A DNA stretch of 64,000 bases from Streptomyces daqingensis. GTDB lineage: Bacteria; Actinomycetota; Actinomycetes; Streptomycetales; Streptomycetaceae. Where the stretch lies: the NCBI RefSeq assembly GCF_014645895.1, contig NZ_BMMP01000005.1:124001-188000 (forward strand). The letters are read 5' to 3'. Numbering within the stretch: the first letter of the stretch is position 1; each line of letters opens with the position of its first letter. The notes under the pieces were generated by a model, which did no database searches, had not been told where the DNA came from, and saw nothing but the letters and a program-made list of their open reading frames with translations. The position numbers and the translations under genes were made by a program. This document shows positions 19,076 to 57,707 of the stretch, piece by piece.

Positions 19076-19087
19076 CAGGAGATGACG

Positions 19088-38447: not shown

Positions 38448-39362
38448 ATGATCGAGGTTCAGAAACTGACCAAACGTTACGGGGAGACGCTCGCCGTCGA
38501 CGGGCTCTCCTTCCAGGTGAGGCCCGGCCGGGTCACGGGCTTCCTCGGGCCCAACGGCGCCGGCAAGTCCACGACGATGCGGGCGATGATCGGCCTGGAC
38601 CGGCCCTCGTCCGGCCAGGTGCTCATCGACGGCAAGCGCTACGAGCAGATCGCTCAGCCCCTGCGGAAGGTGGGCGCGCTGCTGGAGGCCAAGGCCCTGC
38701 ACGGCGGACGTACCGCGTACGGGCACCTGCTCGGCCTCGCCCGCAGCAACCGCATCCCCCCGTCGCGGGTGGGTGAGGTGCTGGAGACGGTCGGGCTGTC
38801 CGCCACCGCGAAGAAGCGGGCCGGCGGGTTCTCCCTGGGCATGGCGCAGCGGCTCGGCGTCGCGGCCGCGCTGCTGGGCGATCCGGAGGTGCTGCTGTTC
38901 GACGAGCCCGTCAACGGTCTCGATCCCGAAGGCATCCTGTGGATCCGGGAGTTGATGAAGAAGCTGGCGGGCGAGGGACGTACGGTCTTCGTCTCCAGCC
39001 ACCTGATGAGCGAGATGGCCCTGACCGCCGAGCACCTGATCGTCATCGGGCAGGGGCGCCTCCTGGCCGACACCACGGTCGAGGACTTCATCGCCCGCAA
39101 CTCGCGCTCCTACATCCACATCCGCACGCCCGAACCCGAGCGCATGCGCGATGTCCTGGCCGGCGACGGCATCCGGACGGAGAAGGGGCCCGAAGGCGTG
39201 CTCGAAGCACTCGGCACCACCTTGGAGACGGTGGGCAAGCTGGCCTCGAAGCACCAGGTGACGGTCTACGAGATCAGCCCCCGTACGGCCTCGCTCGAAG
39301 AGGCGTTCATGCAGCTCACCGCGGACGCGGTGGACTTCCGCGCGGACCTGGAGGTGCGGTGA
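38448..39362 (+). CDS. ABC exporter ATPase, possible lantibiotic immunity LanF
   Basis: A 304-residue ATPase of the CcmA/BcrA type. Walker A is GPNGAGKSTT (K40), the signature is FSLGMAQR, and Walker B is VLLFDEPVNGLDP. The Q-loop position holds Glu instead of Gln (VGALLEAKAL, E80). LanF immunity ATPases have such an E-loop, but so do other drug-export ATPases in Streptomyces. AGGGGG precedes the ATG. The permease follows after two bases. The pair lies directly upstream of the lantibiotic precursor genes on the same strand but ends in its own terminator, so a role in self-protection is possible but not shown. Confidence 0.85.
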   Translation: MIEVQKLTKRYGETLAVDGLSFQVRPGRVTGFLGPNGAGKSTTMRAMIGLDRPSSGQVLIDGKRYEQIAQPLRKVGALLEAKALHGGRTAYGHLLGLARSNRIPPSRVGEVLETVGLSATAKKRAGGFSLGMAQRLGVAAALLGDPEVLLFDEPVNGLDPEGILWIRELMKKLAGEGRTVFVSSHLMSEMALTAEHLIVIGQGRLLADTTVEDFIARNSRSYIHIRTPEPERMRDVLAGDGIRTEKGPEGVLEALGTTLETVGKLASKHQVTVYEISPRTASLEEAFMQLTADAVDFRADLEVR

Positions 39363-39364
39363 CG

Positions 39365-40138
39365 ATGTCGGACACCGGCGCGGCAGTCGCGTTCGAATGG
39401 ACGAAGATCCGCACACTGCGGTCCACGGTCTGGAGCCTCGCTCTCTTCTCCGCCGCGAGCGTGGTCGTGGCTCTCCTCTTCGGTTACGTCATGCGCGGTA
39501 CCTACGCGGACCTGGACGCGGCGGCCCAGGCCCGGTTCGACCCGGTCGCCTCCGGCTTCAGCGGGATGAAACTCGGGATGATCGCACTGGTCGTCTTCGG
39601 CGTGCTGACCGTGAGCAGTGAGTACTCGACGGGGTCCATCCGCAGCTCACTGGCGGCGGTACCGCGCCGGGGCGTCTTCTACGCGGCGAAGCTGCTCACC
39701 GGCACGGCGACGGCGCTGGTCGTCTCGGCCGTCGTGGTGACGCTCAGCTTCTTCGCCGCGCAGACGATGCTGGGCTCTCCGGCGAGCGTCTCCCTCTCCG
39801 ACGACGGCGTGCTGCGCGCCCTCATCGGGGGAGTGCTCTACATGACGCTGATCTGCGCCTTCTCCATGGGCCTCGCGAGCGTGCTGCGCAGTTCGGCGCT
39901 GACCATGGGCATCCTCGTGCCGCTCTTCTTCATGATCTCGACGATCCTCAACAGCATCCCGGGAGTCCAGAAGGTCGCGCAGTTCCTGCCCGACCTGGCC
40001 GGCAGCCTCATCCTGCGCAGCAAGGAGCCGCACGGCGACGGGGTGCTGACCGCCTGGACGGGCATGGCCGTACTGGCGGCCTGGGCCGTGCTGGCAGTGG
40101 CAGCGGGGTACTTCGCGATGCGTCGGCGGGACGCCTGA
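39365..40138 (+). CDS. ABC-2 type permease, possible lantibiotic immunity LanE
   Basis: A 257-residue membrane partner of the preceding ATPase, with six predicted helices. It starts with the common amphipathic segment FEWTKIRTLRSTVWSLALFS. SEYSTGSIRSSLAAVPRRGV in the first loop is typical of ABC-2 permeases in Streptomyces. Only one permease gene is present, whereas many LanFEG systems have two. As a homodimer it could export a peptide, drug or lipid. Its position 644 bases upstream of the alpha-peptide gene is the only hint to lantibiotic immunity. Confidence 0.83.
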   Translation: MSDTGAAVAFEWTKIRTLRSTVWSLALFSAASVVVALLFGYVMRGTYADLDAAAQARFDPVASGFSGMKLGMIALVVFGVLTVSSEYSTGSIRSSLAAVPRRGVFYAAKLLTGTATALVVSAVVVTLSFFAAQTMLGSPASVSLSDDGVLRALIGGVLYMTLICAFSMGLASVLRSSALTMGILVPLFFMISTILNSIPGVQKVAQFLPDLAGSLILRSKEPHGDGVLTAWTGMAVLAAWAVLAVAAGYFAMRRRDA

Positions 40139-40782: not shown

Positions 40783-40947
40783 GTGTACAAGGGCGACGTT
40801 TCGCTGGTTGAAGAGATCGCGGAGCAGGACTTCGACGGTGTTGCCTACGGTGCTTGCACCACCAACACCTTCTCCCTCTCCGACGTGCTGGGCAACACCG
40901 GCGGCTGGTGCACCCTGACCGTCGAGTGCCAGCCGAACTGCAACTGA
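40783..40947 (+). CDS. lanA1: Two-component lantibiotic alpha-peptide precursor (LtnA1-like)
   Basis: A 54-residue class II lanthipeptide precursor. The leader is 24 residues (VSLVEEIAEQDFDGVAYGA at its end) and finishes in a Gly-Ala cleavage site for a C39 peptidase. The 30-residue core starts CTTNTFSLSD, continues through LGNTGG to WCTLTVEC, and ends CN. From memory this aligns without gaps to lacticin 3147 A1, with about 20 of 30 positions identical. It includes the CTLTxEC lipid II-binding motif of mersacidin-like peptides and Ser7, which is D-Ala in lacticin. Four Cys and many Thr/Ser allow four rings. The start is the GTG at 40783, with TGGAG seven bases upstream; the frame is open further upstream but has no similarity. 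Confidence 0.93.
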   Translation: MYKGDVSLVEEIAEQDFDGVAYGACTTNTFSLSDVLGNTGGWCTLTVECQPNCN

Positions 40948-40978
40948 CCAGAAAAACAGAAAAGAGAAGAGAGAGATC

Positions 40979-41131
40979 ATGAGCGAGGACATTCTGGGTG
41001 GTTACGACGAGGCCGAGCTCGTCGAGCTGAGCGACGCCGACGCCTACGGCGGCACGGCGTGGGTCTGCGCCACCGTCACGCTGGCCACCGCGGCCATCTG
41101 CCCCACCACGAAGTGCACCAGCCAGTGCTGA
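40979..41131 (+). CDS. lanA2: Two-component lantibiotic beta-peptide precursor (haloduracin-beta-like)
   Basis: A 50-residue precursor. The leader of 25 residues (EAELVELSDADAYGG) ends in a true double glycine. The 25-residue core begins TAWVCATVTLATAAIC and ends PTTKCTSQC. The terminal CPTTKCTxxC is the hallmark of beta peptides of two-component lantibiotics, and the WxCATV start closely matches haloduracin beta as I remember it. Four Cys pair with Thr/Ser for up to four rings. Beta peptides bind the alpha-lipid II complex and form pores. It lies 31 bases after the alpha gene, with a GAAGAGAGAG ribosome site. Both precursors are too short for routine gene calling. Confidence 0.93.
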   Translation: MSEDILGGYDEAELVELSDADAYGGTAWVCATVTLATAAICPTTKCTSQC

Positions 41132-41172
41132 ATGTGACTTCACCTCTCTCGGTGGTCATGTAGCAGTGCGAA

Positions 41173-41206
41173 GCGGAATGGAGGCCCATTCGGGCCTCCA
41201 TTCCGC
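41173..41206 (+). terminator. Attenuator hairpin between the precursor and synthetase genes
   Basis: A perfect 15-bp stem (41173-41187 with 41192-41206) with loop ATTC, no following T run. It sits 41 bases past the beta-peptide stop and before lanM1. Partial termination here would give much more precursor than enzyme message, as is known for other lantibiotic operons. It may also protect the short precursor mRNA. Confidence 0.85.
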
Positions 41207-41260
41207 GGCCTCGACTTCGGCCGTCTTACGACATCTCGCGAAAACGGGAGCAGCAACACC

Positions 41261-44200
41261 GTGATATCTCCAGCCAAGTACTACCCGGAGTTCGACAGCG
41301 CCGAAGTCGAAGAAACAATCGTTCCGCTGTCGCAGTTCGACGACCAGTTCACCGGCGTGCTCCGGGCAGGCGGTGAGAGCGCGGACGAGCCTCCCTCGCC
41401 GGGCGAGAAGACGCGCGCGACGGTACGGGAGTGGCTCGGCCGGCCTGAGCAGTACCCGTTCCAGAGCGTCATCAGGGGTATCGCCGCCGGTGTCGCCGGC
41501 ACCGACCCCGTCGCCCCGTTCGGGAAGCTCTTCAGCGACCCGGACGCCATGCTGGTGCAGCTGCTCGAACGTACTGAGAGCAGGGTGCGCGAGGTCTACA
41601 GCCGTCCGCTGGTCGCCGCGATCAACCACGCGCGCGAGGAGGGACGGCTCGTCGGGGAGACCCCCGAGGAGCGCTACCGGTACTTCGTCGACCAGGCGAG
41701 GCTCACGTCCTTCGAGGAGGTGAGCGGACTGTCCTTCCCCGTGCTGCGCGACATCACCCGGATCCTGCTCGCCAACGGTGCGGAGAGCGTCACCGAACTC
41801 TGCCGCCGGCTCGTCGCGGACCGCGAGGCCATCGCCGGGACGTTCGGCATCGAGGTCACGGACCGGATCGTCTCCTGCGGTTTCTCCGAGGGAGACGCCC
41901 ACAACCACGGACGCAGCGTCTCCGTGCTCGAATTCGAGTCCGGCAAGAAGCTCGTCTACAAGCCCCGCGACGTCTCCTGTGAAGCCGCGTACGAGCACAT
42001 CGCCGCGGAACTCAACAAGGAGATCGGGACCTCACTGGCCGCGGCCCAGGTCCTCGAGCGGAACCACTACGGATACGTCGAGTTCATCGAGACCGAGGAC
42101 GTCTCGGACATGTCCGGGGAGTTCATGCGCGCCAGCGGCGAACTCGCCGCGGTGCTCTACCTCCTCAACGCGCGGGACATGCACTTCGAGAACATCCTGC
42201 CGACCCGTCGCGGCCCCGTGCCCATCGACCTCGAGACGATTCTGCACCCGGCCCGCATCCACGAAGGCCCCACGCCGGAAGCCGTGGGGAACGCCTACGA
42301 GACGATCGGGCAGTCCATCTACGGCATCGGCATCCTGCCGCTCGTGATGGTCGGGAAGGGCGAGGACGCGGGCCACGTCGACCTCGGATTCCTCGGCGAC
42401 CAGGGGCGGGGCTCCTCGCCGTTCAAGTCGATCTTCTTCGAGAACCCCTACACGGACCGCATCAGCCTGGTGATCCGCGCCCAGGAGGCGCAGGGCCGCC
42501 GTACCGTCGTCAACTCCCTGGGCGAGGACGAGGTCCGCGTCCTGGGCGACCGGATGGCCGAGGGTTTCTCCCGCGTCTTCCGCACGATGATGTCTTCCCA
42601 GGAGCGCTGGGCGGAGCTGCTGCGGAAAGCGGCGTCGGGCATGCGCGTGCGCTACGTGCACAACCCGACCGCGCTGTACGCGCAGACGCTGCGGATGACG
42701 TCCAGCGCCGGCGCCCTCGACGACGTCTCGCCCTACATCGCGCTGCTGAAGCGCATCGCGATCGCCAGCAAGACCTCGTCCCGGCAGATCGTCCGCTCCG
42801 AGATCCGTCAGCTGGCCGAGCGCGACATCCCCTACTTCACGGTCTCCGCGACGGGCGTCGCCCTGGAGGACGGGGACGGCCGCGAGGTCGGAGCCTTCTT
42901 CGACGAGACCCCGGTCGACCGCGCCCTCGCGAAGACGGCGCACATGACGGAGACCGACCTGCGCGAGCAGCTCCGGCTCGTCTACTCGGCCTTCTCCTCG
43001 CGCTTCCCCGACAACCACCTCGCCGCCTCCGGCACCGCGGACGGCGGAGCGTTCCACGCGCCGTCGGACCACGAGACGGGCGGTGACTCCCACGGCGAGC
43101 TCGTCGGACTCGTCGAGCGCCTCGCCGGCAACCTGGTAGAGACGTCGCTGCCCGACAAGTTCGCGCACCTGCCGCGCACCTGGATCGGCCCCCTCGCCTC
43201 GGCCGCGGCCAACAGGCCCTGGCCGCCGGGAGTGCTCGGATACGACCTCTACACCGGCAGGGTCGGCCCCGCACTGGCCCTGGCCGCCGCCGGCCGGTTC
43301 CTGGACCGCGGCGACTACCGGGACCTGGCCGGGCAGATCTTCTCCACGATGGCGGACATCCTCGCCGAGCACCGGTACGAGAGGCGCAGCGTCCAGCAGG
43401 CCGGCTTCGGCGGCTACACCGGCATGGCCGGCATCCTGTTCGCGCTGGCCACCACGGGCCGGCTCCTGGAGAACGACGAGTGGGTCGAAGCCGCGCAGGG
43501 CGCGCTTCCGCTGGTCCTCGACCAGATACGCGACATCGATCCGCGGGTGCTCCCCATCGACGTGGTCAACGGCGTGGCCGGTGTCATGGGCTGCGTCACC
43601 GCGATCGGCGGCCCGCACGCCGACGGTGCCCTGGCGACACTGACGGGGATGCTGACCGACGCCGTCCGGGACGGGGGGCACGGCAGCGTCTTCGCCCAGT
43701 CCGGCTTCGCACACGGCGTCAGCGGGCTCCTGCACGCGCTGAGCGGCGCTCTGCCGCGGGTGCCGTCCGGGCAGCAGGACGTCGTGCGGGACACCCTGAA
43801 GGACCTCGTCGGCCGGCTGCAGAAGTTCTACGACAGTGAGCAGGGCAACTGGTTCTCCAACGTGGCCACGCCTCAGTCGTTCTCGACCGGCTGGTGCCAC
43901 GGTGCGACCGGCATCGCCCTCGCACTGTCCTCGTACGGGAACGTCGCGGAGGACGACGTCGTGAACTGCATGCGCGACGTCGCGATCGGCAACCTCGTAC
44001 GCCACGGCTTCGGGCGGAACCTGACGTGGTGCCACGGAGACCTGGGCAACCACGACGTGCTCACCGGGCTCGCGGCGGACGACGAGAGCCTGCGCGAGGA
44101 GGTCGCCAGGATCGAGCAGCGGTGGCTCCAGCCGGACGTCCTCACACGGAAGATCAACGACAACCAGAGCCGGTACGCGCACACGAACAGCCTCATGGTG

Positions 44201-44290
44201 GGCACCGCCGGCATCGTCCTGCACCTCGTCAACCGTCTCGATCCGAGCGTTCACATCTCACCGGTCACCCTTACCTTTGAGAGCCGATGA
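41261..44290 (+). CDS. lanM1: LanM1 class II lanthipeptide synthetase
   Basis: A complete 1009-residue bifunctional LanM. The N-terminal dehydratase (about 100-560) phosphorylates and eliminates Ser/Thr of the core. It shows KKLVYKPRDV and the kinase-like catalytic loop ARDMHFENIL (D306, H308, N311), followed by PIDLETI. The C-terminal cyclase (about 640-1009) binds zinc through C879, C924 and H925 (GWCHGATG and WCHGDLG) and joins Cys to dehydro residues. By position next to the precursors, and by analogy with HalM1/LtnM1, it probably processes the alpha peptide; this is inference. The GTG at 41261 has GGGAG 10 bases upstream. LanT starts one base after its stop. Confidence 0.95.
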   Translation: MISPAKYYPEFDSAEVEETIVPLSQFDDQFTGVLRAGGESADEPPSPGEKTRATVREWLGRPEQYPFQSVIRGIAAGVAGTDPVAPFGKLFSDPDAMLVQLLERTESRVREVYSRPLVAAINHAREEGRLVGETPEERYRYFVDQARLTSFEEVSGLSFPVLRDITRILLANGAESVTELCRRLVADREAIAGTFGIEVTDRIVSCGFSEGDAHNHGRSVSVLEFESGKKLVYKPRDVSCEAAYEHIAAELNKEIGTSLAAAQVLERNHYGYVEFIETEDVSDMSGEFMRASGELAAVLYLLNARDMHFENILPTRRGPVPIDLETILHPARIHEGPTPEAVGNAYETIGQSIYGIGILPLVMVGKGEDAGHVDLGFLGDQGRGSSPFKSIFFENPYTDRISLVIRAQEAQGRRTVVNSLGEDEVRVLGDRMAEGFSRVFRTMMSSQERWAELLRKAASGMRVRYVHNPTALYAQTLRMTSSAGALDDVSPYIALLKRIAIASKTSSRQIVRSEIRQLAERDIPYFTVSATGVALEDGDGREVGAFFDETPVDRALAKTAHMTETDLREQLRLVYSAFSSRFPDNHLAASGTADGGAFHAPSDHETGGDSHGELVGLVERLAGNLVETSLPDKFAHLPRTWIGPLASAAANRPWPPGVLGYDLYTGRVGPALALAAAGRFLDRGDYRDLAGQIFSTMADILAEHRYERRSVQQAGFGGYTGMAGILFALATTGRLLENDEWVEAAQGALPLVLDQIRDIDPRVLPIDVVNGVAGVMGCVTAIGGPHADGALATLTGMLTDAVRDGGHGSVFAQSGFAHGVSGLLHALSGALPRVPSGQQDVVRDTLKDLVGRLQKFYDSEQGNWFSNVATPQSFSTGWCHGATGIALALSSYGNVAEDDVVNCMRDVAIGNLVRHGFGRNLTWCHGDLGNHDVLTGLAADDESLREEVARIEQRWLQPDVLTRKINDNQSRYAHTNSLMVGTAGIVLHLVNRLDPSVHISPVTLTFESR

Positions 44291-44291
44291 C

Positions 44292-46478
44292 ATGAGCCTC
44301 ACACTCCGCAGCCGCAAGCACGCCCGCCGCGTGCCCACGCTCACGCAGGTGACGCAGACAGAGTGCGGACTGTGCTGCACCGTCGCACTGCTGCGCTACT
44401 ACGGGCGTGCGGAGGACCTCTCCAGCGCACGCGCCGTGATGGACGCCGGCCGCGACGGCCTGAGCGCCGGTCAGCTCGCCCGCTACCTGCGCACGCGCGG
44501 GATGGACGCGAAGCTCTTCCGCGCCAAGAGCGTCACCGCGCTGGAGAAGTTCACCTCGCCGGTGATCCTCTACTGGGAGGAGTACCACTTCGTCGTCCTC
44601 GAGAAGTTCGACGGTCAGAAGGCGATCGTCATGGACCCGGCCATGGGGCGCCGTCGGCTGAGCCGCGAGGAGCTGGAAGAGGGCTTCAGCGGCATCGTCG
44701 TCTCCGCGGACGTCGGCCCGGACTTCGAGAAGACGCGCCAGAAGCCGATGACGGAGTGGCGCAACATCCCGCTCTTCGCCGAGGGTTCGCGCAAGCGGAT
44801 CGCCCTCGTCGGCCTGCTCTCCTTCAGCGGCTACGGCGCGGTGCTGGGCATCCCCATGCTGACGGAATGGGCCGTCGACCAGCAGGCGAGGTGGAAAGGG
44901 CTCGACGACCTGGGCACCGTCATCGCCGTCGTGCTGGGCGTGGCGGCCGCCTACCTGGCCCTGCACGTGGTCAGAGTCATGGTCCTCTCGACCGTCGTGG
45001 CGATGCTGGGCAAGCATCTGATGACCCATACGTTCAGCAAGATGCTGTCCCTGCCGTACAGGTTCTTTACCGTGCGGCAACCCGGTGAGCTGCTGTTCCG
45101 GCTGAACAGCGTCAACATGATCAGGGATCTGCTGTCGTCGAGAGTGGCGCAGGGAATCCTCGACGTGGGGACGCTGCTGTGCGTCACCGGCTACCTGTTC
45201 TACGTCGAGTGGCGCCTGGGCCTGATGGCCGTCGTGCTGTTCCTGCTCAACGCGTTCTACCTGGCCCGTACGCGGCCGAAGCTGATGGAGTTCGTCGACT
45301 CGGAGATCAGCCAGCTGAGCAAGAGCCAGTCCACACAGCTGGACGCGATCGTGTCGATCCCCACGATCAAGATGGGCGGCTACGCGGACGAGTTCCTCGA
45401 GAGCTGGGGCAAGGTCTACGGCTCCTCGCTGGAGGCGATGAAGGACCGGATGCGCATGCAGCAGGGCCGCATCTCGGGTGTCACGACGACGACCCAGATG
45501 TTCGGTCCGATGATCCTGCTGCTCTCCAGCCTCTACTTCGTCAGCCACGGCTACATATCGCTGGGCGCGGCCATCGCCGTGCAGGCGGTCTCGGCCACCT
45601 ACTTCTCCCTGTCGACGTCGGTGTTCTCGACCTACACCGAGTTCACCGAGGCGTCCCGCTACATGGCCAGGCTGAGCGACATCGTCAAGTCGGAGCCGGA
45701 GGACCCGGGCGGCACCCTCACCGGCCTGCTCTCGACGTCCATCCAGCTGGAGGACGTCAGCTTCCAGTACACGAAACACAGCGACCTGGTGATCCGGAAC
45801 GTGTCCCTGGACATCCCGGCCGGCTCCAGGGTCGCCCTCGTAGGCGCCTCGGGTTCGGGCAAGAGCACCCTGGGCCGCATCATCTGCGGGCTGTACGAGC
45901 CGACAAGAGGCCACGTCAGGTTCGGCGACGTCGACACGCGGCACTACGACAAGAACGCCCTGCGGCGGCAGATCGGCTACATCCCGCAGGAGATCCATCT
46001 CCACAACCGCACCATCCTGGAGAACCTGACGCTCGGCCAGGACATCCCCGCGGACAAGGTGCGCGAGTACTGCGCCGGCGTCGGCATCCTCGACTTCCTC
46101 GAGGACCTGCCCATGGGCCTCAAGACCCTCGTCTCGGAGATGGGCGCGAACTTCTCCGGCGGTCAGCGCCAGCGCCTCGCCATCGTGCGGGCGCTGCTGC
46201 AGAACCCGCCCATCCTCGTGCTCGACGAGGCGACGTCGGCCCTGGACACCGTCAACGAGCGCCGTGTCGGCGAGATCATCGAGCACATCGGCGCCACCCA
46301 GGTGATCATCGCCCACCGTCTGGCGACCATCAAAGCCGCCGACCACATCTACGTGCTCGACAACGGCCGCGTGGTCGAACAGGGAAGCCACACGCAGCTG
46401 CTGCACGGAGGCGCGGTCTACACGGACCTGTACGCGGACAGGTCCCCGGACCTCGACGTCGTGGTCGGAGGCGAGTGA
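44292..46478 (+). CDS. lanT: LanT bifunctional C39 peptidase/ABC transporter
   Basis: A 728-residue membrane exporter that removes the leader at Gly-Gly or Gly-Ala while pumping the peptide out. The N-terminal C39 peptidase has C25 (TQTECGLCC), H99 (WEEYHFVVLE) and D115 (VMDPAMG). Six membrane helices follow from about 170. The ATPase has GASGSGKSTL, FSGGQRQRLA and VLVLDEATSALD, all intact. One transporter serves both precursors, whose cleavage sites (GA and GG) it must both accept, as LtnT does in lacticin 3147. The stop is followed immediately by lanM2. Confidence 0.95.
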   Translation: MSLTLRSRKHARRVPTLTQVTQTECGLCCTVALLRYYGRAEDLSSARAVMDAGRDGLSAGQLARYLRTRGMDAKLFRAKSVTALEKFTSPVILYWEEYHFVVLEKFDGQKAIVMDPAMGRRRLSREELEEGFSGIVVSADVGPDFEKTRQKPMTEWRNIPLFAEGSRKRIALVGLLSFSGYGAVLGIPMLTEWAVDQQARWKGLDDLGTVIAVVLGVAAAYLALHVVRVMVLSTVVAMLGKHLMTHTFSKMLSLPYRFFTVRQPGELLFRLNSVNMIRDLLSSRVAQGILDVGTLLCVTGYLFYVEWRLGLMAVVLFLLNAFYLARTRPKLMEFVDSEISQLSKSQSTQLDAIVSIPTIKMGGYADEFLESWGKVYGSSLEAMKDRMRMQQGRISGVTTTTQMFGPMILLLSSLYFVSHGYISLGAAIAVQAVSATYFSLSTSVFSTYTEFTEASRYMARLSDIVKSEPEDPGGTLTGLLSTSIQLEDVSFQYTKHSDLVIRNVSLDIPAGSRVALVGASGSGKSTLGRIICGLYEPTRGHVRFGDVDTRHYDKNALRRQIGYIPQEIHLHNRTILENLTLGQDIPADKVREYCAGVGILDFLEDLPMGLKTLVSEMGANFSGGQRQRLAIVRALLQNPPILVLDEATSALDTVNERRVGEIIEHIGATQVIIAHRLATIKAADHIYVLDNGRVVEQGSHTQLLHGGAVYTDLYADRSPDLDVVVGGE

Positions 46479-46480
46479 AC

Positions 46481-49330
46481 GTGGCTGAACCGGACGTCTC
46501 CATACCGGCGTTCCTCCCCTTCTACGCGCACCTGGCTCCCAGAAGCGCGGTCGAGGACGCGCTGCGCGACCTCGCCGCACCGGTCACCGCGCCCGAACGC
46601 CTCGAAGAGGTGCTGGACCAGGTGTGGAGCGGAATGCTCACCGCCGTCGAGGGGCAGTCCTTCCGGGCACTGATCGGGGAGTTCCACGCCTTTCGGGAGT
46701 ACCACGGACTCCCCATGGACGCCGAGGGCGACGAGGCGCTGCGGAAGTTCCGCGCCCACCTGGGCACCGACGGCAACTGCCGCGAGCTGATCGGCAGATA
46801 CCCGGTGCTCCGGCAGCGGCTCGCCACGATCCGGCGGAACCTGCTCGACGCGTACACGGACCTCTTCGCGGCCTACACCGCGGACCGTGCGGAGCTGAAG
46901 GCCGCCGGGCTGCTCCCGGCGGGGGACTCCGAAGCGCTGATCGAGAAGATCTTCCTCACCGGCTCCGACCCGCACAACGACAACCGCCAGGTGATCCAGC
47001 TCCGGCTGACGGGCGGGACACGGCTGGTCTTCAAGCCGCGCGCCCTGGTCTCCGACCGCTTCGTGAAGGACCTCTACGACGCGGCGGACCCTTACCTCAA
47101 GCACTCGCTGCGCGACTGCATACCGCTCTCCGTCTCCACGGGCACGCACGGGTGGCAGCAGTACGTCGCCTCCGCACCGATGGACTCGCCGGACCAGCCG
47201 GCGCGCTACTTCTACCGGTTCGGCGCCCTCTGCGCGGTCTTCGGCACCCTCGGCGCCTCGGACATGCACGACGAGAACCTGCTGGCGTGCGGCGAGACCC
47301 CGAGCGTCATCGACACCGAGACGATGCTCCGTGCCGATGCCGGCGTCGACAACGACTCCCTTCCGCACGTGCTCGTGAACCACATGAAGCTCTCGGTGGT
47401 CTCCACGATGCTCGTCCCCGTGGTGAACCCGACGTCGCCCATCGACGTCGTCATGGCGGGCGTGGGAGTCGCCGGCGACCAGAAGTCGAAGCTGAAGCGC
47501 GCGGCGGTCCGCGACGGAACCACGGACAGGATCTCCGTCACCTGGGAACCCGTCACGTACAAGCACCACGGGAACGTGCCCCGCCTCGGGGACGAACGGC
47601 TGTCGGCCCCCGACTACTTCAGCGACATCCTCGCCGGGTACTCCGACGGCCTCGCCTTCGTGCGCGACGGCGGGATCTCGAAGGTCGTCGACGCCTATCC
47701 CGGCATGCCGGTCCGCAGCCTGATGCGCTCGACCATGGTCTACGGCCGGTTCCTGGACGCCTCCACGCACCCCGACTACCTGCGCGACCCCGCCGAGGCG
47801 GCACGGCTGTTCGGGCTGCTCGCCCGCATGCCGGACTACCTCTCGCCCGAGGCGGCCGACTACGTGGCGGAGGAGGAACGCGCGTCGCTGTCGACGGGGA
47901 ACGTCCCGTACTTCATGACGCGGGCGGACTCGAAGGAGCTGTCCACGCTCAAGACCGCCTATCCGGGGGTGTACAAGGCCTCTCCGCTCGACATGGCGCA
48001 CCGCGGGATCGCCATGAACTCCGAACGCAGCGACCTCTACCACCATTTCCTGCTGGAGGAGTGTTTCAGCGAGGTCGTCGGCGAGGAGCGGCCGGAAGGA
48101 CTCTCCTCGGAGAGCCTGTTCGGGAGACCGGTCCTCGACAGCGCACGCCCCGGCGCCTGGTGGCCCGAGATCGCGCGCCGGATCGACGAAATCGGCGTGC
48201 GCTTCGAAGGGCCGGAAGGAACCGAAACCGGCTGGGTCTGCGGCATTGGCCCGGAGCGGAACGTCTCGACCATCACGCCCGGCAACTTCGTCTCGTTCCA
48301 TGACTCCGGCGGGATAGTCACCTTTCTCGAGAGGGCGTCGCGCCACGACAGCGCACTGCGTTCCGTCCACGCCGGAGCCGACCGGGGTCTGAGAAGTCTG
48401 CTCGCGAAGTACGGCGACCTGCTGATGCAGACACCGGAATCCGTCTTCACCGGCGCCGCCTCGATGCTGCTGACGAGACCCGCGGACGTCGACCGTGAAT
48501 GGTTGGCGAAGGTTTTCGAGAGAATCGAAGAGCGGGCGATCTCGAACGAACTCGAAAAAGACCTGGCGAATGGCCCGGCCGGTCTGCTGATGGTTCTGCT
48601 GTCACGCGCCGGGGAAAGCGGAGCGAGCGGAGAAAGCGTTCTCTGCGACGAGAAACAGCTCGGGAAGCTGCGCGATCTCACCCTCGAGCACCTCTCGGCG
48701 GACAGAACGGCGAAGTGGTTCGACGTCGCGCACGGCGAACTGGGGCTGCGCTGGGCTTGTTCGCGTATGGGAAAAATGCTCGAGGATCCGGCCCTGGTGG
48801 AACAGTCGGCCGACTGGCTCGTCGCACGGTCCTCCTCGGACGAACAGACCCCCTACGCGGGCTGGTGCAACGGCGCCGCGGGTCAGCTCCTGACCTCGGC
48901 GGAGATCCTCGGCGCCGCAGGCCGCACAGACTGGCTCACGGGTGCGCGACTGCAAAGCCTGGTCGACAAGGCGACGGCCCTTCCGGAGGACAGGGCGTTC
49001 GACCTCTCCGTCTGCCACGGCAGCAGCGGCGTCGTCCAGTCGCTCGTCGCCGCCGGACGCCTTCTCGGAGAGGAATCCCTCTTTACCAGAGCCCATGAGT
49101 ATCAGGAACTCGTTCTTGACAGAATCCGGAGGACCGGATTTTATACAGGTGCTGGAGGCCGGACATCCCTGTTGGGATACATGTTCGGGTGGTCCGGTAT
49201 CGGTGACACCGACGTCATTCTCCAGTCTGCCGGAAAGAGTCCTGGAAAAGGCGTCGGCGATTGTCACCTTCCGGTCGCGCTTTCCAGTGGTGTTCTCGAC
49301 CGACGGACAGCAGCAGGAGGTTCACAATGA
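46481..49330 (+). CDS. lanM2: LanM2 class II lanthipeptide synthetase
   Basis: A second complete LanM, about 949 residues and clearly diverged from LanM1. The dehydratase has TRLVFKPRAL and SDMHDENLL (D261, H263), then VIDTETML. The cyclase zinc ligands are C796 (GWCNGAAG) and C845/H846 (SVCHGSSG). By analogy with HalM2/LtnM2 it should modify the beta peptide. The GTG at 46481 has GGAGG nine bases upstream; the GTG at 46475, which would overlap the lanT stop, has it too close. The last 25 residues are unusual for LanM and run into the next gene, sharing ATGA. Having two synthetases supports a two-component product. Confidence 0.94.
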   Translation: MAEPDVSIPAFLPFYAHLAPRSAVEDALRDLAAPVTAPERLEEVLDQVWSGMLTAVEGQSFRALIGEFHAFREYHGLPMDAEGDEALRKFRAHLGTDGNCRELIGRYPVLRQRLATIRRNLLDAYTDLFAAYTADRAELKAAGLLPAGDSEALIEKIFLTGSDPHNDNRQVIQLRLTGGTRLVFKPRALVSDRFVKDLYDAADPYLKHSLRDCIPLSVSTGTHGWQQYVASAPMDSPDQPARYFYRFGALCAVFGTLGASDMHDENLLACGETPSVIDTETMLRADAGVDNDSLPHVLVNHMKLSVVSTMLVPVVNPTSPIDVVMAGVGVAGDQKSKLKRAAVRDGTTDRISVTWEPVTYKHHGNVPRLGDERLSAPDYFSDILAGYSDGLAFVRDGGISKVVDAYPGMPVRSLMRSTMVYGRFLDASTHPDYLRDPAEAARLFGLLARMPDYLSPEAADYVAEEERASLSTGNVPYFMTRADSKELSTLKTAYPGVYKASPLDMAHRGIAMNSERSDLYHHFLLEECFSEVVGEERPEGLSSESLFGRPVLDSARPGAWWPEIARRIDEIGVRFEGPEGTETGWVCGIGPERNVSTITPGNFVSFHDSGGIVTFLERASRHDSALRSVHAGADRGLRSLLAKYGDLLMQTPESVFTGAASMLLTRPADVDREWLAKVFERIEERAISNELEKDLANGPAGLLMVLLSRAGESGASGESVLCDEKQLGKLRDLTLEHLSADRTAKWFDVAHGELGLRWACSRMGKMLEDPALVEQSADWLVARSSSDEQTPYAGWCNGAAGQLLTSAEILGAAGRTDWLTGARLQSLVDKATALPEDRAFDLSVCHGSSGVVQSLVAAGRLLGEESLFTRAHEYQELVLDRIRRTGFYTGAGGRTSLLGYMFGWSGIGDTDVILQSAGKSPGKGVGDCHLPVALSSGVLDRRTAAGGSQ

Positions 49331-49491
49331 AGAAGAGCCGCGGCACTTGGGGTGTCGTCGTCGCTATCGGCGGCGCCATCGCGATCACGAGCGCGTACAG
49401 CGGAAACACCGTGCTCGCCGGAGTGGTCGGAGTGCTGACCGTCGTCGTCGCAGTGGCCACGTTCATGAAATTCGACCGCAAGCAGTCCTGA
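49327..49491 (+). CDS. Small two-helix membrane protein, immunity candidate
   Basis: A 54-residue protein translated from an ATG that overlaps the lanM2 stop (ATGA), with AGGAGG nearby. The basic start (MKKSRG) is followed by helix 1 (about 8-24, WGVVVAIGGAIAITSAY), a short SGNT turn, helix 2 (about 28-47, VLAGVVGVLTVVVAVATFMK) and a charged end. It is not a lanthipeptide precursor: it has no Cys. Small membrane proteins inside lantibiotic operons often confer immunity (LanI, LtnI-type), and that is the best guess. No direct similarity is recognised. Confidence 0.75.
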   Translation: MKKSRGTWGVVVAIGGAIAITSAYSGNTVLAGVVGVLTVVVAVATFMKFDRKQS

Positions 49492-49561
49492 AGAATCGGG
49501 ACCAGGGGAGCGCATCGCGCACACCTCGATGCGGAAAAGCCCGTAGAAAGGAATTCCCGGG

Positions 49562-50521
49562 GTGCGGCTCTCGATACTCCTCCCCTTCGGTCCTGTCCGT
49601 CCGGAGCAGGTCGTCCCTTTTGCGAACCTGGTGCACTGGACGTGTGCGCACAGGTTGTGGCAGGGCCACGGAATGCTCCTGGACAGTCATCATCTGATCA
49701 ATTGGCTCGCCGGAATCGGCATCAGGGTCCCTTCCGGGTTCGGTGTCTCCCTGATGCCGCTCCGCTCTCCGTACCAGGCCGCGCTGGAAGCGCGTTCCGT
49801 GGCTCTCAACACGGGGCATTCCGTCGTGGCCGGGTTCGGCCCCGGGGGAGTCGCGGCCCAGCGCAGCTTCATGGGCAAGCCGTACGCCAGCCCGCTCGCG
49901 GCGAGCCGCGAGTACGTCAGCACGGTGCGGGGCCTGCTGTCCGGCGAGGTCACGGAGGTCCACGGGGACCACTACTCGTCCGTCTCGCGCCTGGTGGAGT
50001 TCAAGCCGGCGCCCGTCTCCGTCGGCCTGGGCGTCCTGCGGGAGAAGATGGCCGCCCTGGCCGGTGAGATCGCCGACGTGGCCATCACCTGGCTCGGCTC
50101 CGCGCACTACCTCCACGAGACGCTGATGCCGGCGATGGAGGAGGGTGCGCGGGAGCGCCGGTCCGGCGACCCGGCCAAGGTGACGGCCATCGTGCCCGTC
50201 GCCCTCTCCGGTCCCGACCGCAAGGTCGCCGATCTGGCCGCCGCGGCCTGCGGGCAGCACATCCAGGCGCCGCACTACAAGGACGCCCTGCGCAAGGCCG
50301 GTGTCGATATCTCCGGAGACGGAAGCCCCGGGGACGCCGTGAAGCTCGTCGACGGCGGGGTCTTCCTGTACGGCACGGCCGAGGAGATCCACAAGCGGCT
50401 GGACGAGTACCGGAAGATCGGCGTCGACGAGGTCGTCCTGAACGCCACCGGCGTCGGCAACATCGCGGGCCCCCGCGCGGCCGCCACCGACCTCCTGGAG
50501 ATCCTCGACGCGGCGTCCTGA
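49562..50521 (+). CDS. Luciferase-like (LLM) F420-type oxidoreductase of the lantibiotic cluster
   Basis: A 319-residue TIM-barrel protein of the bacterial luciferase-like family, whose actinomycete members mostly use F420. Typical segments are MRLSILLPFG, ARSVALNTGHSVVAGFGPGG, EVHGDHYSS and FLYGTAEEIHKRLDEYRKIG. It is the last gene of the cluster, 70 bases after the small membrane gene, with AAAGGA nine bases before the GTG. F420-dependent LLM enzymes (LanJC type, such as LxmJ of lexapeptide) reduce dehydroalanine or dehydrobutyrine to D-amino acids. That role would match Ser7 of the alpha core, which is D-Ala in lacticin 3147. The assignment is inference; an oxidative tailoring step is the alternative. 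Confidence 0.82.
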   Translation: MRLSILLPFGPVRPEQVVPFANLVHWTCAHRLWQGHGMLLDSHHLINWLAGIGIRVPSGFGVSLMPLRSPYQAALEARSVALNTGHSVVAGFGPGGVAAQRSFMGKPYASPLAASREYVSTVRGLLSGEVTEVHGDHYSSVSRLVEFKPAPVSVGLGVLREKMAALAGEIADVAITWLGSAHYLHETLMPAMEEGARERRSGDPAKVTAIVPVALSGPDRKVADLAAAACGQHIQAPHYKDALRKAGVDISGDGSPGDAVKLVDGGVFLYGTAEEIHKRLDEYRKIGVDEVVLNATGVGNIAGPRAAATDLLEILDAAS

Positions 50522-50561: not shown

Positions 50562-50594
50562 GCCCCGGTCAGCAACCCCCCTGCTGGCCGGGGC
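50562..50594 (+). terminator. Terminator at the end of the lantibiotic cluster
   Basis: A 13-bp stem with one G-T pair (50562-50574 with 50582-50594), followed by TTTCCT. It lies 40 bases past the LLM gene stop. Confidence 0.85.
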
Positions 50595-50795: not shown

Positions 50796-51133
50796 CGGTC
50801 TCGGTCGCGGAGTGCGGGCGTGCCTCCGGGTGACCGTGGCGAGGTCAAGGATAGGGGGCCCCGTGGCTGGCGCTGTTTGCTTCACGTCCGCGACACCATG
50901 TGGAGGTTCGGTGAAGCGCTCCCGATAATCGCAGGCCGGTGCGATTCGTGCAGCGGTTTTCGCCGTGTGCCGTACGGGTGTTGCGCAGTCGTTATGGGTG
51001 CGTCGGCAGTGGTGGCGACGAGTGGCGGGTCACATGGGGCGAATGGCCCATTCGCATCCGAAACCGATTGTTTTCCCTGCGCAGTGCCGTGGATAGGCTT
51101 CAAAAAGGCAGCAAATTTGGGCATTCTGCGCAT

Positions 51134-52894
51134 GTGGCGATCTTGAACGTACGGCCAGAACTGATCGATGCACTTACCGCGCTGCGCGAAGGCGTCGCCG
51201 CTGCACGCTTTCCGCTGCCCCTTCCGGGCGCCGAGCGCGCCCGGCGTTCGCGCGACGAACTGCTCGCCCAGCTCGACGACTACCTCATGCCGCGGCTGCG
51301 CGTTCCGGACGCGCCGCTGCTCGCCGTGGTCGGGGGTTCGACGGGAGCGGGCAAGTCGACACTCGTCAACTCGCTCGTGGGGCGCAGAGTCAGCGAGGCG
51401 GGGGTGCTTCGTCCGACGACGCGTACGCCTGTGCTCGTGTGCCATCCCGACGACCGCGAGTGGTTTGCCGGACGGCGCATCCTGCCGCGGCTGGAGCGGG
51501 TGTGGGTTCCCCGCCAGGACGCCGCCCAGGGCCAGTTCGGCTCCGGCGCACGCGGGGACACGGCCGGCGACGAGCTCCTCGGCGCCGAGGAGACGGACAC
51601 CGAGGACGACGGCAGCCGCCCTCTGCGGATCGAGACCGACTCCGCGCTGCCCGCCGGTCTGGCCCTGCTCGACGCACCCGACATCGACTCCCTGGTCGCC
51701 CGCAACCGCGACCTCGCCGCGGAACTCCTGTGCGCCGCGGACATCTGGGTACTCGTCACGACCGCCGCGCGCTACGCGGACGCAGTGCCGTGGAACCTGC
51801 TGCGCACCGCCAAGGAGTACGACGTCACGCTCGTCACCGTCCTCGACAGGGTGCCGCACCAGATCGCCCCGGACGTGGCGAGGCAGTACGGCGCCCTGAT
51901 GATCCGTGAAGGGCTGGCCGACGTGCCGCGCTTCACCGTCCCCGAACTGCCGGAGTCCGCCGGGGGATCGGGGCTGCTGCCCGCAACAGCCGTCGCGGGC
52001 CTGCGCAATTGGCTCGCGCAGCGGGCCTTGGATCCCGCGGCGCGGGCGGTGGCAGGCCGCCGTACCGCCGTCGGGGCCCTCGCGTCGCTCCGCCCGCGCG
52101 TCGCCTCGCTCGCCAACGCCTCGGCCGCACAGCACGCCGCGGCGACGCGGCTGACGGGCCACGTCGAGGACGCCTTCGAGGAGGCCCGCGTACGCGTACG
52201 GCGGCACATCGCCGTCGGCGAACTCCTCGCGGGCGACGCCGACGCGCTGTGGCGCGGCTTCCCCGTCGACAGCCGGGGCGAGGAGGTGCTGGACGCCTTC
52301 GAGGAGGGGCTGACCACGCTGCTCGCCTCCGCCGTCGCCGCAGCCGACGAGCGCATCGCGGAGTCCTGGCGCCGCGAACCGGCCGTGCCCGGCGGGGAGT
52401 CGGCGGACGCGACCGGGGAGCGGCGCGGCCGCGGCCTGCCGGAAGGTGTCCGCGGATCCGACGGGCGGGGGCGCATGAACCTGCTCGTGCGCCGCTGGCG
52501 GCGGTGCATGGAGGAGCTCGCCGACGAGGAGGCGCGCGCGGTCGACCACGGCTTCGGCCGGGACGCCGAGGAGGCGGCGGCGCTGCTTGCGACGGCACTC
52601 GTGGGCGGTGGCCACGCGGCGGGCGCCTACCGGTCGCTGGCGGCGGCGTTCGGCGAGGTGAGCGCGCGGAAGCTGAGGGAGTGCGGAGTGCGGCTGCTCG
52701 CGACGTACGTGGAGAGAGCGCTGTACGGGGAGCGGGACCGCCGCCTGGCCCCGCTGGAGGCCCTGGAGACGGCGCCCGGCCCGCAGGTCGACCTGATCGC
52801 GGCGCTGTCGGTGCTGCGCAAGGCGGAGTCGGCGGCTCTCCCGGGGCCGGGAGCCCGGAAGTTGACGGAGTCGCAGTCCCAGACGGAGAGGTGA
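51134..52894 (+). CDS. dynA: Dynamin-like GTPase DynA
   Basis: A 586-residue GTPase without membrane helices. The P-loop is [13 protein letters not shown] near residues 66-78. The switch region is [15 protein letters not shown], and [12 protein letters not shown] is the G3 motif. Long helical segments make up the rest. With the next gene it matches the Streptomyces DynA/DynB pair, bacterial dynamins that stabilise FtsZ rings in sporulation septa. The start is uncertain: GTG at 51134 or TTG at 51143 both precede the conserved [10 protein letters not shown], and the frame stays open upstream without similarity. The stop overlaps a possible upstream start of dynB. Confidence 0.8.
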
Positions 52895-52899
52895 CGGCA

Positions 52900-55209
52900 G
52901 TGTCCACAACGGATGTTCGTATCGACGGCTCGTCCGACGAGAAGCAGGCCGCGCCGGACGCCGCCGCGGGCAGCGGCGGTCCTCCTGCCGTGAGCGGCGG
53001 GAACCGGGAGCGGCAGGCAGCCGCGACGGAAGGCGGTGCCGCCGCCGAGCAGGGCGAAGGGACCGCCGCTGACGGCGAAGCGGGAGCGTGGGACGACGGG
53101 CTGATCGCGAGGCGCGCGCACGCCGCGTCGGCGCCGGGCGAGCGCCCTGCCTGGTCGAGGGCCGCCGCGCTGTGGGGCACGGACCCCGACCCGGAACCGC
53201 CGGACTCCGGAGGTCCCGGCGTCGCGGCGGCGCCCGGAAGGCAGATGCCCGGCTGGTCGTCCGACGAGGCGTCCCCCGTACAGCCGTACGAGGACTTCGA
53301 CGGCCACGAGGAGTACGCGCAGCGTGCGCACGGGGCCGGCCCGCGCGGCGCGGAGACCTCGCTGTCCCAGCGGCTCGCCGCGCTGAGCAGGCTCCTCGAC
53401 CTTTCCCGCTCCCGGATCCCCTCGGGCGTCCTCGCGGAGGCCCAGCGCGTCCTGGACGCCGCGGGCGCCCGCAAGCAGCTCCCGAGCGCCTACACGACCG
53501 TGGCGATCGCCGGAGCGACGGGCAGCGGCAAGTCGTCCCTCTTCAACGCCCTTGCGGGGACGCGGCTTTCGCAGGCAGGCATGCGCCGCCCCACCACCGC
53601 CACGCCCGTCGCCTGCTCGTGGGAGGTGCCGGGCGCGGGTCCGGCCGACGGGCTCCTCGACCGGCTCGCGATCCCGCAGTCGACGCGCAGGCTCATGCGT
53701 CCCGAGTCGGACTGGCGGGGACGCATCGACGACTCGGCCCGCCACGAACTGGAGGGGCTCGTCCTCATCGACCTCCCGGACCACGACTCCGCCGCGGACG
53801 GCCACCGCGCACAGGTGGACCGGCTGCTGCGGCTCGTGGACGCGGTGGTGTGGGTCGTCGACCCCGAGAAGTACGCCGACGCCGTGCTCCACGAGCGGTA
53901 TCTGCGTCCGCTGGCCGGGTACGCCGAGGTGACCTTCATCGTGCTCAACCAGACCGACCGCCTCCCCGGCGAGGCGAAGGACGCCGTGCTCAACGATCTG
54001 CGGCGGCTGCTCGACGAGGACGGCATGGCGCTGGGCGATCACGGAGAGCCCGGCGCGCGGGTGCTGGCCACCTCCGCGCTCGGGGGTGAGGGCGTGGACG
54101 AACTCCGCACGGACCTCGCGCAGTTCGTCGCCCTGCGCCGTGCTGCGGGGTTGCGGCTCAACGCCGACCTGGACGGCGTCGTGGGCCGGCTGCGCGCGGT
54201 GTACGTGCCTCCCGGCCACGTCCCGGCGGCGGCCTCGGCGGACGCGCTGTCCGGCCTGACGGAGGAGGTCCGCGACGACTTCGCCGACAGGCTGGCCCGC
54301 GCGGCGGGCGCCGTCTCCGCGGGGCAGGCAGCCGAGCGCGCCTGGCTGCGGCTGGCCGACCGCGCGTGCGGGACGCCGTGGGCCCGCCTCCAGCACTGGT
54401 ACGACGACCGTCGTTCCGCGAAGGAGGAGCCCGCCGCCGCGGAACTCGGCGACGCGGAAGCCGCCTCGGCCGAGGCCGAGGCGTACGCCTTCTCCGAGGA
54501 GGGCGGGCAGGCCGGTGCGGGCGAAGGAGGCGCCGGAGGCGAGCTGCCCGACGTGCCGGCCGCCTCCGCTGCGGCACGTCCGGCCGGCGACAGGCTGCCC
54601 AGAGTGTCGCGGCCGGCTGTCGCCCACGCCGTTCGCACAGTGGTCGAGCAGGCGGGCGCCGGGCTGCCCGAGGCGTGGCACCGCTCCGTACGGGACGCGG
54701 CCTGGCGCGGCGCAGCGGGGCTGCCGGAGGCCCTGGACAGGGCGCTGCGGGAGGACGACGCCCCCGAGGGCGCCGCGGACGGCGCGGAAAGGGACGGGCA
54801 GTCCGACGGCGGGACCACGCGCGGCGGACGTACCCGGGCGGCGGCGCCGCGGCGTCCGGCATGGTGGGCGCTGGCCTTCACGGGGCAGCTGGTGCTGCTG
54901 CTCCTCCAGCTCGTCGGTGCCGGATGGGTGGCCGCGACAGCGCTGGGTGCGGGTGTCGGCGAGGAGTGGATGGGGGTCGCCCTGCTGCTCGGGGGCGTTC
55001 TCGGCGGTTCGCTGCTCTCGTGGGGCTGCCGCTTCGCGGCGCGCGGGCCCGCGGCGGTGTACGGGCAGCGCGAGGAGTGGCGGCTGCGCCGCCTCGTGGC
55101 GTCGTGCGGGCAGGTCAGGGTGCTGGAGCCGGTGGCCGCGGAGCTGCTGCGCTACCGGGAGGTGCGCGAGCAGTACGTGATCGTGTCGGGCGAGGCGGGA
55201 CAGCTGTAA
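52900..55209 (+). CDS. dynB: Dynamin-like GTPase DynB, membrane-bound
   Basis: A 769-residue GTPase. About 160 N-terminal residues are low-complexity and probably disordered. The P-loop (GATGSGKSSLFNALAG) is near residue 205, with LVLIDLPDHDS as G3 and LNQTDRLP as G4. Two C-terminal transmembrane helices follow (LAFTGQLVLLLLQLVGAGWV and VALLLGGVLGGSLLSWGCRF), then a 60-residue helical end. This is the membrane-anchored partner of DynA in sporulation-septum formation. The GTG at 52900 has GGAGAGG eight bases upstream; GTG 52891 overlaps the dynA stop (GTGA). A strong terminator follows. Confidence 0.8.
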   Translation: MSTTDVRIDGSSDEKQAAPDAAAGSGGPPAVSGGNRERQAAATEGGAAAEQGEGTAADGEAGAWDDGLIARRAHAASAPGERPAWSRAAALWGTDPDPEPPDSGGPGVAAAPGRQMPGWSSDEASPVQPYEDFDGHEEYAQRAHGAGPRGAETSLSQRLAALSRLLDLSRSRIPSGVLAEAQRVLDAAGARKQLPSAYTTVAIAGATGSGKSSLFNALAGTRLSQAGMRRPTTATPVACSWEVPGAGPADGLLDRLAIPQSTRRLMRPESDWRGRIDDSARHELEGLVLIDLPDHDSAADGHRAQVDRLLRLVDAVVWVVDPEKYADAVLHERYLRPLAGYAEVTFIVLNQTDRLPGEAKDAVLNDLRRLLDEDGMALGDHGEPGARVLATSALGGEGVDELRTDLAQFVALRRAAGLRLNADLDGVVGRLRAVYVPPGHVPAAASADALSGLTEEVRDDFADRLARAAGAVSAGQAAERAWLRLADRACGTPWARLQHWYDDRRSAKEEPAAAELGDAEAASAEAEAYAFSEEGGQAGAGEGGAGGELPDVPAASAAARPAGDRLPRVSRPAVAHAVRTVVEQAGAGLPEAWHRSVRDAAWRGAAGLPEALDRALREDDAPEGAADGAERDGQSDGGTTRGGRTRAAAPRRPAWWALAFTGQLVLLLLQLVGAGWVAATALGAGVGEEWMGVALLLGGVLGGSLLSWGCRFAARGPAAVYGQREEWRLRRLVASCGQVRVLEPVAAELLRYREVREQYVIVSGEAGQL

Positions 55210-55862: not shown

Positions 55863-56070
55863 TCGTCCCGGTCCGCCGGATTCGCTGATAACGATTGTGG
55901 ATCAGAACGCTTGCTCGACCCGTTCGAGGGGAAGCGGGTCGCGCCCGCTCCTTACGATCCTCCGCATGGCTGACGGGGGTTCAGTGCTGTGCGGCGAGAC
56001 AAGACCGTCCCGACCACCGGTCACCGAGTGACCGCCGATGTCGTGTCCGTCTCGCCCGGAGGGGAAATCC

Positions 56071-57570
56071 ATGAGCTTTGTCCGCACCGCTGTGACTGTC
56101 GTGGGCGGATGCGCGACCGCACGGAGGCGGCGGCTGCTGGCCGCGGCGCTGTTCGTGCCGGCACTGCTGGCGGGCGGTCTGACGGCCGCCGCCACCCCCG
56201 CGGCCGCAGAGCAGGCGGCACCCGGGGAGCAGCCCACCTGGCAGGGCGGTGCCCTGGCCACGCTGGAAGGGCTGGAGACGCACGATGAGGCGGTCGTCCG
56301 CGAGGACGGCGAGGAACTGACCACGAGCGCCGGCCTGTTCGAGATGGCCGTCGACGGCGGCGGGACCCTGCAGACGTACGGCACGGACGTCGACAGTGCC
56401 ACGCAGGACCAGGCGCGGTACGGCGAGACCGACTGGGACCAGACCTCGCTGCACGGCAACCGGAACGCGGGGAAGATCCTCTGGATACTCCGGCACTCGT
56501 ACCCGCAGGTCAACGATCTGCAGGCACTGGCGAAATCGTCAGGGGCGGGCAAGCTCACCCCTGAGACGGCGGCCGCGGGCACCCAGGTGGCCATCTGGAG
56601 GTACTCGGACGCCGGGGGAGACGTCGAGGTCGAGGCGGTCGACCGCGCCGCGGAGAAGCTCGCCGACCACCTGCACCGCCAGGCCCGCACGCTGGCCGAG
56701 CCCAGGGCCTCGATCTCCCTCGACTCCGCCGGGGTCGCCGAGAAGGCGGAGGGCCGGTTCGGTCCGCTGAAGGTGCGTACCGGCGCACCGAGCGCGGCGA
56801 TCGCCCCGGCTTCCCGCTCCGCGCTCCGCGACGTACGGGTCGTGGGAGACGGCGGCAGGAACGCGGCCTCCGTCCGGGACGGCGGGCGGCTGTACCTCGA
56901 CGTGCCGTCGAAGCGCCGGACGGGGACGGCCTCGCTGACCGTGCAGGCCGCAACGAAGGTCCCGGTCGGCCGGGCCTTCGCAGCAGTGGGAGGACAGGCC
57001 GGCAGTCAGACGCAGATACTCGCGGGCTCCAGCCGGTCCACGGTCTCGGCGGCGGCCGACGTCAGCTGGGACGAGCATGGCGTGATACCCGGCGTCGGCG
57101 CGGTGAAGGACTGCCGGGAGGGCGGCGTGCGCCTCACCGTGGTCAACTCCGGTGACCGGCCGTTCCGCTTCCGTGCCGCGGGCGAGACCCACGCCGTACC
57201 GGCGAAGCGCAACAAGAAGATCACGGTGCCCGTGGGCGAGGACCAGGCGTACCGCATCCCCGTCAGCGCGCCGGGCGTGCGGAAGGCATTCACCGGCGTA
57301 CTGGACTGCGTCACCAGGAGCGAGGCCGCCAGGCCCGACATGAGCGGGATGACGACGCAGTCCCAGCCGGCCACCGTCGGCGGGAGCGATTCGGGCGGCT
57401 CCGCTCAGGAGGGCGGGGACCTGGCGGAGACGGGTGCGAGCAACACCCCGGTCCTCGTCGGCGTCGCGGTGGGACTCGTCGTCGTGGGTGCCGTCGCGGT
57501 CCTCGCGGTGCGCCGCCGCGGGCCGGAAGAGGACGGAGAGCCGGAGGAAGCCGAGCAGCACACTTCGTAG
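56071..57570 (+). CDS. Thioester (TQXA)-domain cell-wall protein with LAETG sorting signal, cysteine lost
   Basis: A 499-residue surface protein. The signal peptide is RRRRLLAAALFVPALLAGGL. A TQXA thioester-type domain spans about 60-220, shown by GNRNAGKILWILRHSYPQVN and GTQVAIWRYSD. Normally a Cys in a YCID motif forms a thioester with the Gln of TQxA. Here the matching place reads TYGTDVD, with Gly at 104, so the bond cannot form unless another Cys substitutes. The C-terminus has the sortase E-type signal LAETG (451-455), a membrane helix and RRR. It is therefore anchored to peptidoglycan. GGAGGGG precedes the ATG. Confidence 0.85.
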   Translation: MSFVRTAVTVVGGCATARRRRLLAAALFVPALLAGGLTAAATPAAAEQAAPGEQPTWQGGALATLEGLETHDEAVVREDGEELTTSAGLFEMAVDGGGTLQTYGTDVDSATQDQARYGETDWDQTSLHGNRNAGKILWILRHSYPQVNDLQALAKSSGAGKLTPETAAAGTQVAIWRYSDAGGDVEVEAVDRAAEKLADHLHRQARTLAEPRASISLDSAGVAEKAEGRFGPLKVRTGAPSAAIAPASRSALRDVRVVGDGGRNAASVRDGGRLYLDVPSKRRTGTASLTVQAATKVPVGRAFAAVGGQAGSQTQILAGSSRSTVSAAADVSWDEHGVIPGVGAVKDCREGGVRLTVVNSGDRPFRFRAAGETHAVPAKRNKKITVPVGEDQAYRIPVSAPGVRKAFTGVLDCVTRSEAARPDMSGMTTQSQPATVGGSDSGGSAQEGGDLAETGASNTPVLVGVAVGLVVVGAVAVLAVRRRGPEEDGEPEEAEQHTS

Positions 57571-57707
57571 CGAGCAGTTCACACCGCGACGTGAAGGGCC
57601 GCGACCGCCCCGTTTCGGGCTGAGCGGTGACGTGCGGCAAGATGGGTGCTGTCTGCCCATGCGGCGCGGCCGCACTTCGACACCTACTGATTGCCGGACG
57701 GTTCCTC

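Follow-up and report, generated by a model that had tools for sequence, protein, structure and literature searches.

Gene content of the locus

The window, meaning the whole stretch of 64,000 nucleotides from Streptomyces daqingensis that was analysed, carries a class II two-component lantibiotic gene cluster on its forward strand. The genes encode an alpha and a beta precursor, two complete LanM enzymes and a C39-type LanT, and their reading frames are open on translation (Table 1). The stretch 40783..50521 ends exactly at the stop codon of a sixth gene, encoding a PF00296 oxidoreductase, and the cluster probably starts further upstream, at an ABC transporter pair (38448-40138).

Table 1. Genes and hairpins of the cluster, in positions of the window.
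Feature	Position	Strand	Evidence
ABC transporter ATPase, candidate self-protection LanF	38448..39362	+	PF00005 95.5 bits; role from position
ABC transporter permease, candidate self-protection LanE	39365..40138	+	start ATG 39365; putative role
Alpha precursor (LanA1)	40783..40947	+	NF000539 49.5 bits (cut-off 29); PF14867 38.2 bits (cut-off 27); 58% to LtnA1 over 48 residues
Beta precursor (LanA2)	40979..41131	+	NF038161 67.6 bits (cut-off 26); 40% to LtnA2
Perfect 15-bp hairpin, 4-nt loop, between beta precursor and lanM1	41173..41206	+	hairpin scan and shuffles
LanM1, predicted alpha synthetase	41261..44290	+	TIGR03897 522 bits (cut-off 304); LtnM1 372 bits vs LtnM2 107
LanT, C39 peptidase / ABC exporter	44292..46478	+	PF03412, PF00664, PF00005; 38% to LtnT
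LanM2, predicted beta synthetase	46481..49330	+	TIGR03897 341 bits (cut-off 304); LtnM2 265 bits vs LtnM1 83
LLM-class oxidoreductase, candidate LanJC (dehydroalanine to D-Ala)	49562..50521	+	PF00296 89.9 bits
Terminator-like hairpin 3' of LLM gene	50562..50594	+	13 pairs, T-rich tail

The alpha precursor starts at GTG, with GGAG upstream, and belongs to the plantaricin C family lantibiotics of NCBIfam (NF000539) and to Lantibiotic_a of Pfam (PF14867). The beta precursor is placed by NCBIfam in the 'class II lanthipeptide, LchA2/BrtA2 family' (NF038161), and a Pfam search with it returned no family. These assignments and the similarity to LtnA1 and LtnA2 describe a lipid-II-type alpha precursor adjoining a distinct beta precursor, as in clusters of the lacticin 3147 type. 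The alpha core is predicted to start at the Cys after ...YGA and the beta core at the Thr after ...YGG; FSLSD and CTLTxEC are kept in the alpha core.

Both LanMs combine the Pfam domains DUF4135 and LANC_like, the dehydratase and LanC-like parts of a class II lanthipeptide synthetase, and carry the dehydratase motifs DxHN, KPR, DxHxEN and IDxET and the cyclase motifs WCxG and CHG, whose residues, including the Cys and Cys-His of the cyclase motifs, we take to be catalytic. The 6.5-Mb genome has two LANC_like matches, both in these LanM genes, and LicM2 is the best solved-structure match for both enzymes. The family scores of the precursors and LanMs exclude a chance resemblance. The LanT reading frame opens at TTG 44277, the start being likely ATG 44292, and the Cys, His and Asp motifs are present. 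The preliminary description had reported two class II precursors with GA and GG sites, two full LanMs and one C39-type LanT on a single strand in an intact cluster, all of which holds, intactness being upheld as to open frames, kept motifs and gene order, but its inventory does not include the LanJC candidate, nor the ABC pair or the hairpin before lanM1. A promoter scan was uninformative (one site, against 0.6 by chance), and the literature search gave no report recognised as being on this locus.

Directly 3' of the cluster lie two dynamin-like/GTPase frames (50939-52894 and 52009-55209, forward strand, the start of the second being provisional). An anti-phage role for these dynamin-like genes was considered and dropped, since PADLOC, run on three proteins, gave no family. 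Further along the same strand are a protein with a thioester (TED) domain (56038-57570) and one with two ABC ATPase stretches joined by an ABC_tran_Xtn linker (57627-59372), perhaps of the ABC-F kind.

Relatives, the ABC pair and the hairpin before lanM1

One public-genome scan with LanM1 returned 25 loci, among which the label S. rimosus was absent; with one further locus, L033, they make up the 26 relatives. L033 (NZ_CP109497.1, 339367-362294) lies on a linear Streptomyces plasmid of 737 kb and is a complete cluster that includes the ABC pair. Of 392 genomes of the genus, 14 gave NF038161 matches, the present genome among them, and NCBI uses the name of that family for beta precursors from several Streptomyces as well as from an Actinoplanes and a Plantactinospora. 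Two of the loci, L009 (9335-9871) and L012 (8623-9884), have tandem beta precursor genes and one alpha, and two from Nocardioides have an extra LanM-like stretch upstream on the opposite strand (L024, 4163-5548; L025, 4279-5985; both reverse). The apparent second LanM1 of L007 and L024 proved to be the LanM2 gene, matched weakly by LanM1.

In the Streptomyces sp. NBC_01431 cluster an ABC pair sits directly 3' of the LLM gene, and the ATPase and permease upstream of the precursors in the window share 61% and 48% identity with it, respectively. Among the 26 relatives, 21 have the ATPase and 19 the permease, with NBC_01431, the source of the queries, counted in both; at least two of the five loci missing the ATPase, L008 and L020, are incomplete. 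In seven relatives the pair lies upstream as in the window, and the ATPases of L024 and L025 show only about 40% identity. The pair is likely to serve in producer self-protection, a role suggested by position, since the genome itself encodes three further ATPase paralogues of 56-59% identity.

A single hairpin would mean little in this DNA, because three other perfect hairpins of at least 15 pairs occur in the window at 8270, 20247 and 61247 (among 25 listed of 30). The stem between the precursors and lanM1 nevertheless recurs, and in 24 of the 26 regions shuffled, the window among them, it beats each of its 20 dinucleotide shuffles; the stem of L010 ties with the best shuffle, that of L024 is weak and fails, and L007, with a gap longer than those shuffled, was left out. 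Its pairing is preserved although the arms vary from lineage to lineage, an argument that the hairpin is functional, likely as an attenuator or RNA-processing element. The literature search yielded no paper describing an attenuator in clusters of this type. In eight clusters in which the alpha and beta genes are separated, the stem 3' of the beta gene beats its shuffles in none and ties in one (the start of the second LanT being approximate), and the hairpin therefore belongs to the block before lanM1. It may hold the precursors in excess of the enzymes, and its retention 3' of the precursor genes suggests that the relatives have a common means of balancing peptide against enzyme. The terminator-like hairpin behind the LLM gene is weak evidence by itself, as the scan found four such sites in all against a shuffle mean of 4.1.

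Predicted biosynthesis and candidate targets of the reductase

LanM1 and LanM2 are dissimilar enzymes that pair with LtnM1 and LtnM2, respectively, and the split clusters agree with this pairing. In eight of the 25 loci (L014-L018, L021, L022 and L027) the order is alpha-M1-T-F-E-beta-T-M2-J, each half having its own LanT, which is evidence at the sequence level for one LanM per peptide. Because of these best matches and the separation of the alpha-M1 and beta-M2 blocks, the earlier proposal of one dedicated LanM for each peptide is supported, with substrate use as a prediction. A less strict division, with one or both LanMs modifying both precursors, would fit the similar ...AYG stretch at the end of both leaders, and LanMs can be promiscuous. 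Such sharing is nevertheless improbable, given the separate blocks in the split clusters and the low similarity of the two enzymes, which are 24% identical over 384 residues. That value also compares with about 50% reported, in the available text of PMC10027976, for a duplicated LanM pair of the roseocin family. The same text describes two-LanM clusters of that family in Micromonosporaceae, and the window might by analogy hold unrelated peptides served by a duplicated LanM. This reading has next to no probability and is refuted by the precursor families: both precursors of the window are assigned elsewhere, and the GCC motif of roseocin-family cores is absent from both cores.

With a dedicated LanM for each peptide, dehydration and cyclisation of the alpha peptide would fall to LanM1 and those of the beta peptide to LanM2. 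Dehydroalanine arising from Ser7 of the alpha core would be reduced by LanJC, and both peptides would be cut behind GA or GG and exported by LanT. For these predicted cleavage sites the calculated neutral monoisotopic mass of the alpha peptide is near 3053.29 (7 water losses, +2 H), and that of the beta peptide 2453.14, 2435.13, 2417.12 or 2399.11 for 5 to 8 water losses, to which a reduction would add 2.016. By analogy with described two-component lantibiotics, the alpha peptide may bind lipid II through its conserved CTLTxEC region, after which the beta peptide may form pores, and the upstream ABC pair would protect the producer. Many actinomycete clusters are silent in culture, and there is a small though appreciable chance that this one is silent or non-functional in the strain; against this, all frames are open and both motifs and gene order are preserved.

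The predicted structure of the LLM-class protein (mean pLDDT 89.4) is closest in fold to the F420-dependent methylene-tetrahydromethanopterin reductases (Mer; 1z69, TM 0.79 by query length), and FMN monooxygenases with the same fold appear lower in the list of structure matches. The F420 subfamilies of NCBIfam match the protein only below cut-off; use of F420 is considered likely from the modelled fold. A LanJA of the LtnJ kind was ruled out, as BLAST gave no match to LtnJ at E values up to 10. The closest named protein, from Streptomyces ovatisporus, is 94% identical. Two LanJ-like LLM genes flank the cluster of Streptomyces viridochromogenes (L019; 8166-9107, reverse, and 18176-19120, forward), with 55% and 65% identity to that of the window.

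Of the 26 relatives, 25 have LanJ together with the alpha motif FS[LF]S, and the remaining one, the variant cluster of Streptomyces fumigatiscleroticus (L007), lacks both, although its beta peptide retains the CPT region; this concordance is weak, since it rests on one loss event. In the beta core of the window there is no Ser before the CPT(T) region, and one Ser in the last ring, which is a possible LanJC target. The same lack of Ser before CPT was seen in six of the 29 beta cores identified at the DNA level in 27 clusters (the window, the 25 loci and L033, two clusters having two betas), namely those of the window, L003, L004, L005, L019 and L023, whereas the other 23 have one to four; the Actinoplanes core (L023) is entirely without Ser and its cluster keeps LanJ.

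As the alpha Ser is kept and the beta peptide has none before CPTT, D-Ala in the beta peptide of the window is unlikely, and LanJC would be limited to the alpha peptide or to Thr-derived residues. It is conceivable, if doubtful, that LanJC has in this branch lost its beta Ser target and either serves the alpha peptide alone or reduces Thr-derived dehydrobutyrine in the beta peptide to D-aminobutyrate. Reduction of dehydrobutyrine to D-aminobutyrate has been reported, in the literature as available, for LanJB and one LanJA; RodJA, a zinc-type LanJA, is described as reducing dehydrobutyrine too in the accessible text of PMC11519912. No report of D-aminobutyrate formation by a LanJC was found in the available parts of the literature covered. 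The natural Ser-poor beta peptides allow a test of dehydrobutyrine reduction by LanJC, and L023 makes it directly testable.

Comparison with known systems

From alpha on, the order alpha-beta-M1-T-M2-J is the same as in lacticin 3147 of Lactococcus lactis, where pMRC01 is annotated with a plantaricin C family lantibiotic, ltnA2, lanM, a peptidase-domain ABC transporter, a DUF4135 protein and a medium-chain dehydrogenase. In BLAST every gene of the window except J pairs best with its lacticin 3147 counterpart, although the LanMs share only 25-29% with those of lacticin 3147. The medium-chain dehydrogenase is unrelated to the LLM-class protein of the window, so the position of LanJ in an otherwise identical gene order is taken by a different kind of reductase. 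Lichenicidin resembles the window in the name of the beta family, LchA2/BrtA2, and in LicM2, the structure match noted above, but its producer is a Bacillus and the window has an alpha precursor of the type found in lacticin 3147; the comparison with the lichenicidin precursors is by family name. Roseocin, from Streptomyces roseosporus, is also a two-component class II lanthipeptide of Streptomyces; it differs in having a single LanM and precursors unrelated to those of the window, as far as the text of PMC10027976 extends.

The nearest described system, dating from 2020, is birimositide (brt), from Streptomyces rimosus subsp. rimosus WC3908, for which the available text of PMC7268733 reports a lacticin-like alpha peptide, a beta peptide of another family, synergy of the purified peptides and an LLM reductase proposed as LanJC. 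The window shares with it the genus, a lacticin-alpha-like alpha precursor, a beta precursor of the LchA2/BrtA2 family (NF038161) and a PF00296 LanJC candidate within the cluster, a comparison that rests on the text of the paper and the NCBIfam family. The birimositide beta peptide is described there as having one D-Ala and conserved serines, whereas that of the window has no Ser before CPTT. In the accessible text of PMC11705897 another Streptomyces is listed with a birimositide cluster of 100% similarity, and birimositide is also named in PMC10676316, PMC9231227, PMC11732287 and PMC8358304, as far as their available text goes.

Because birimositide already combines a lacticin-like alpha, a beta, a LanJC and shown synergy, and the NCBIfam beta family is named after it, the earlier suggestion of a probably undescribed actinomycete system, which named roseocin as its only actinobacterial precedent, is not supported as to kind, in so far as PMC7268733 is available. 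Judged from gene content, the window very probably holds a birimositide-type relative of lacticin 3147, likely a two-peptide lantibiotic, in which each precursor is predicted to have its own LanM and D-alanine is predicted to be formed by a luciferase-like reductase. The locus is a new relative in a described family, not a new kind, and extends the actinomycete lacticin-type lantibiotics by one complete member. Its new features are modest: a beta core without Ser before CPTT beside a kept LanJC, and a hairpin 3' of the precursors that is kept across the relatives.
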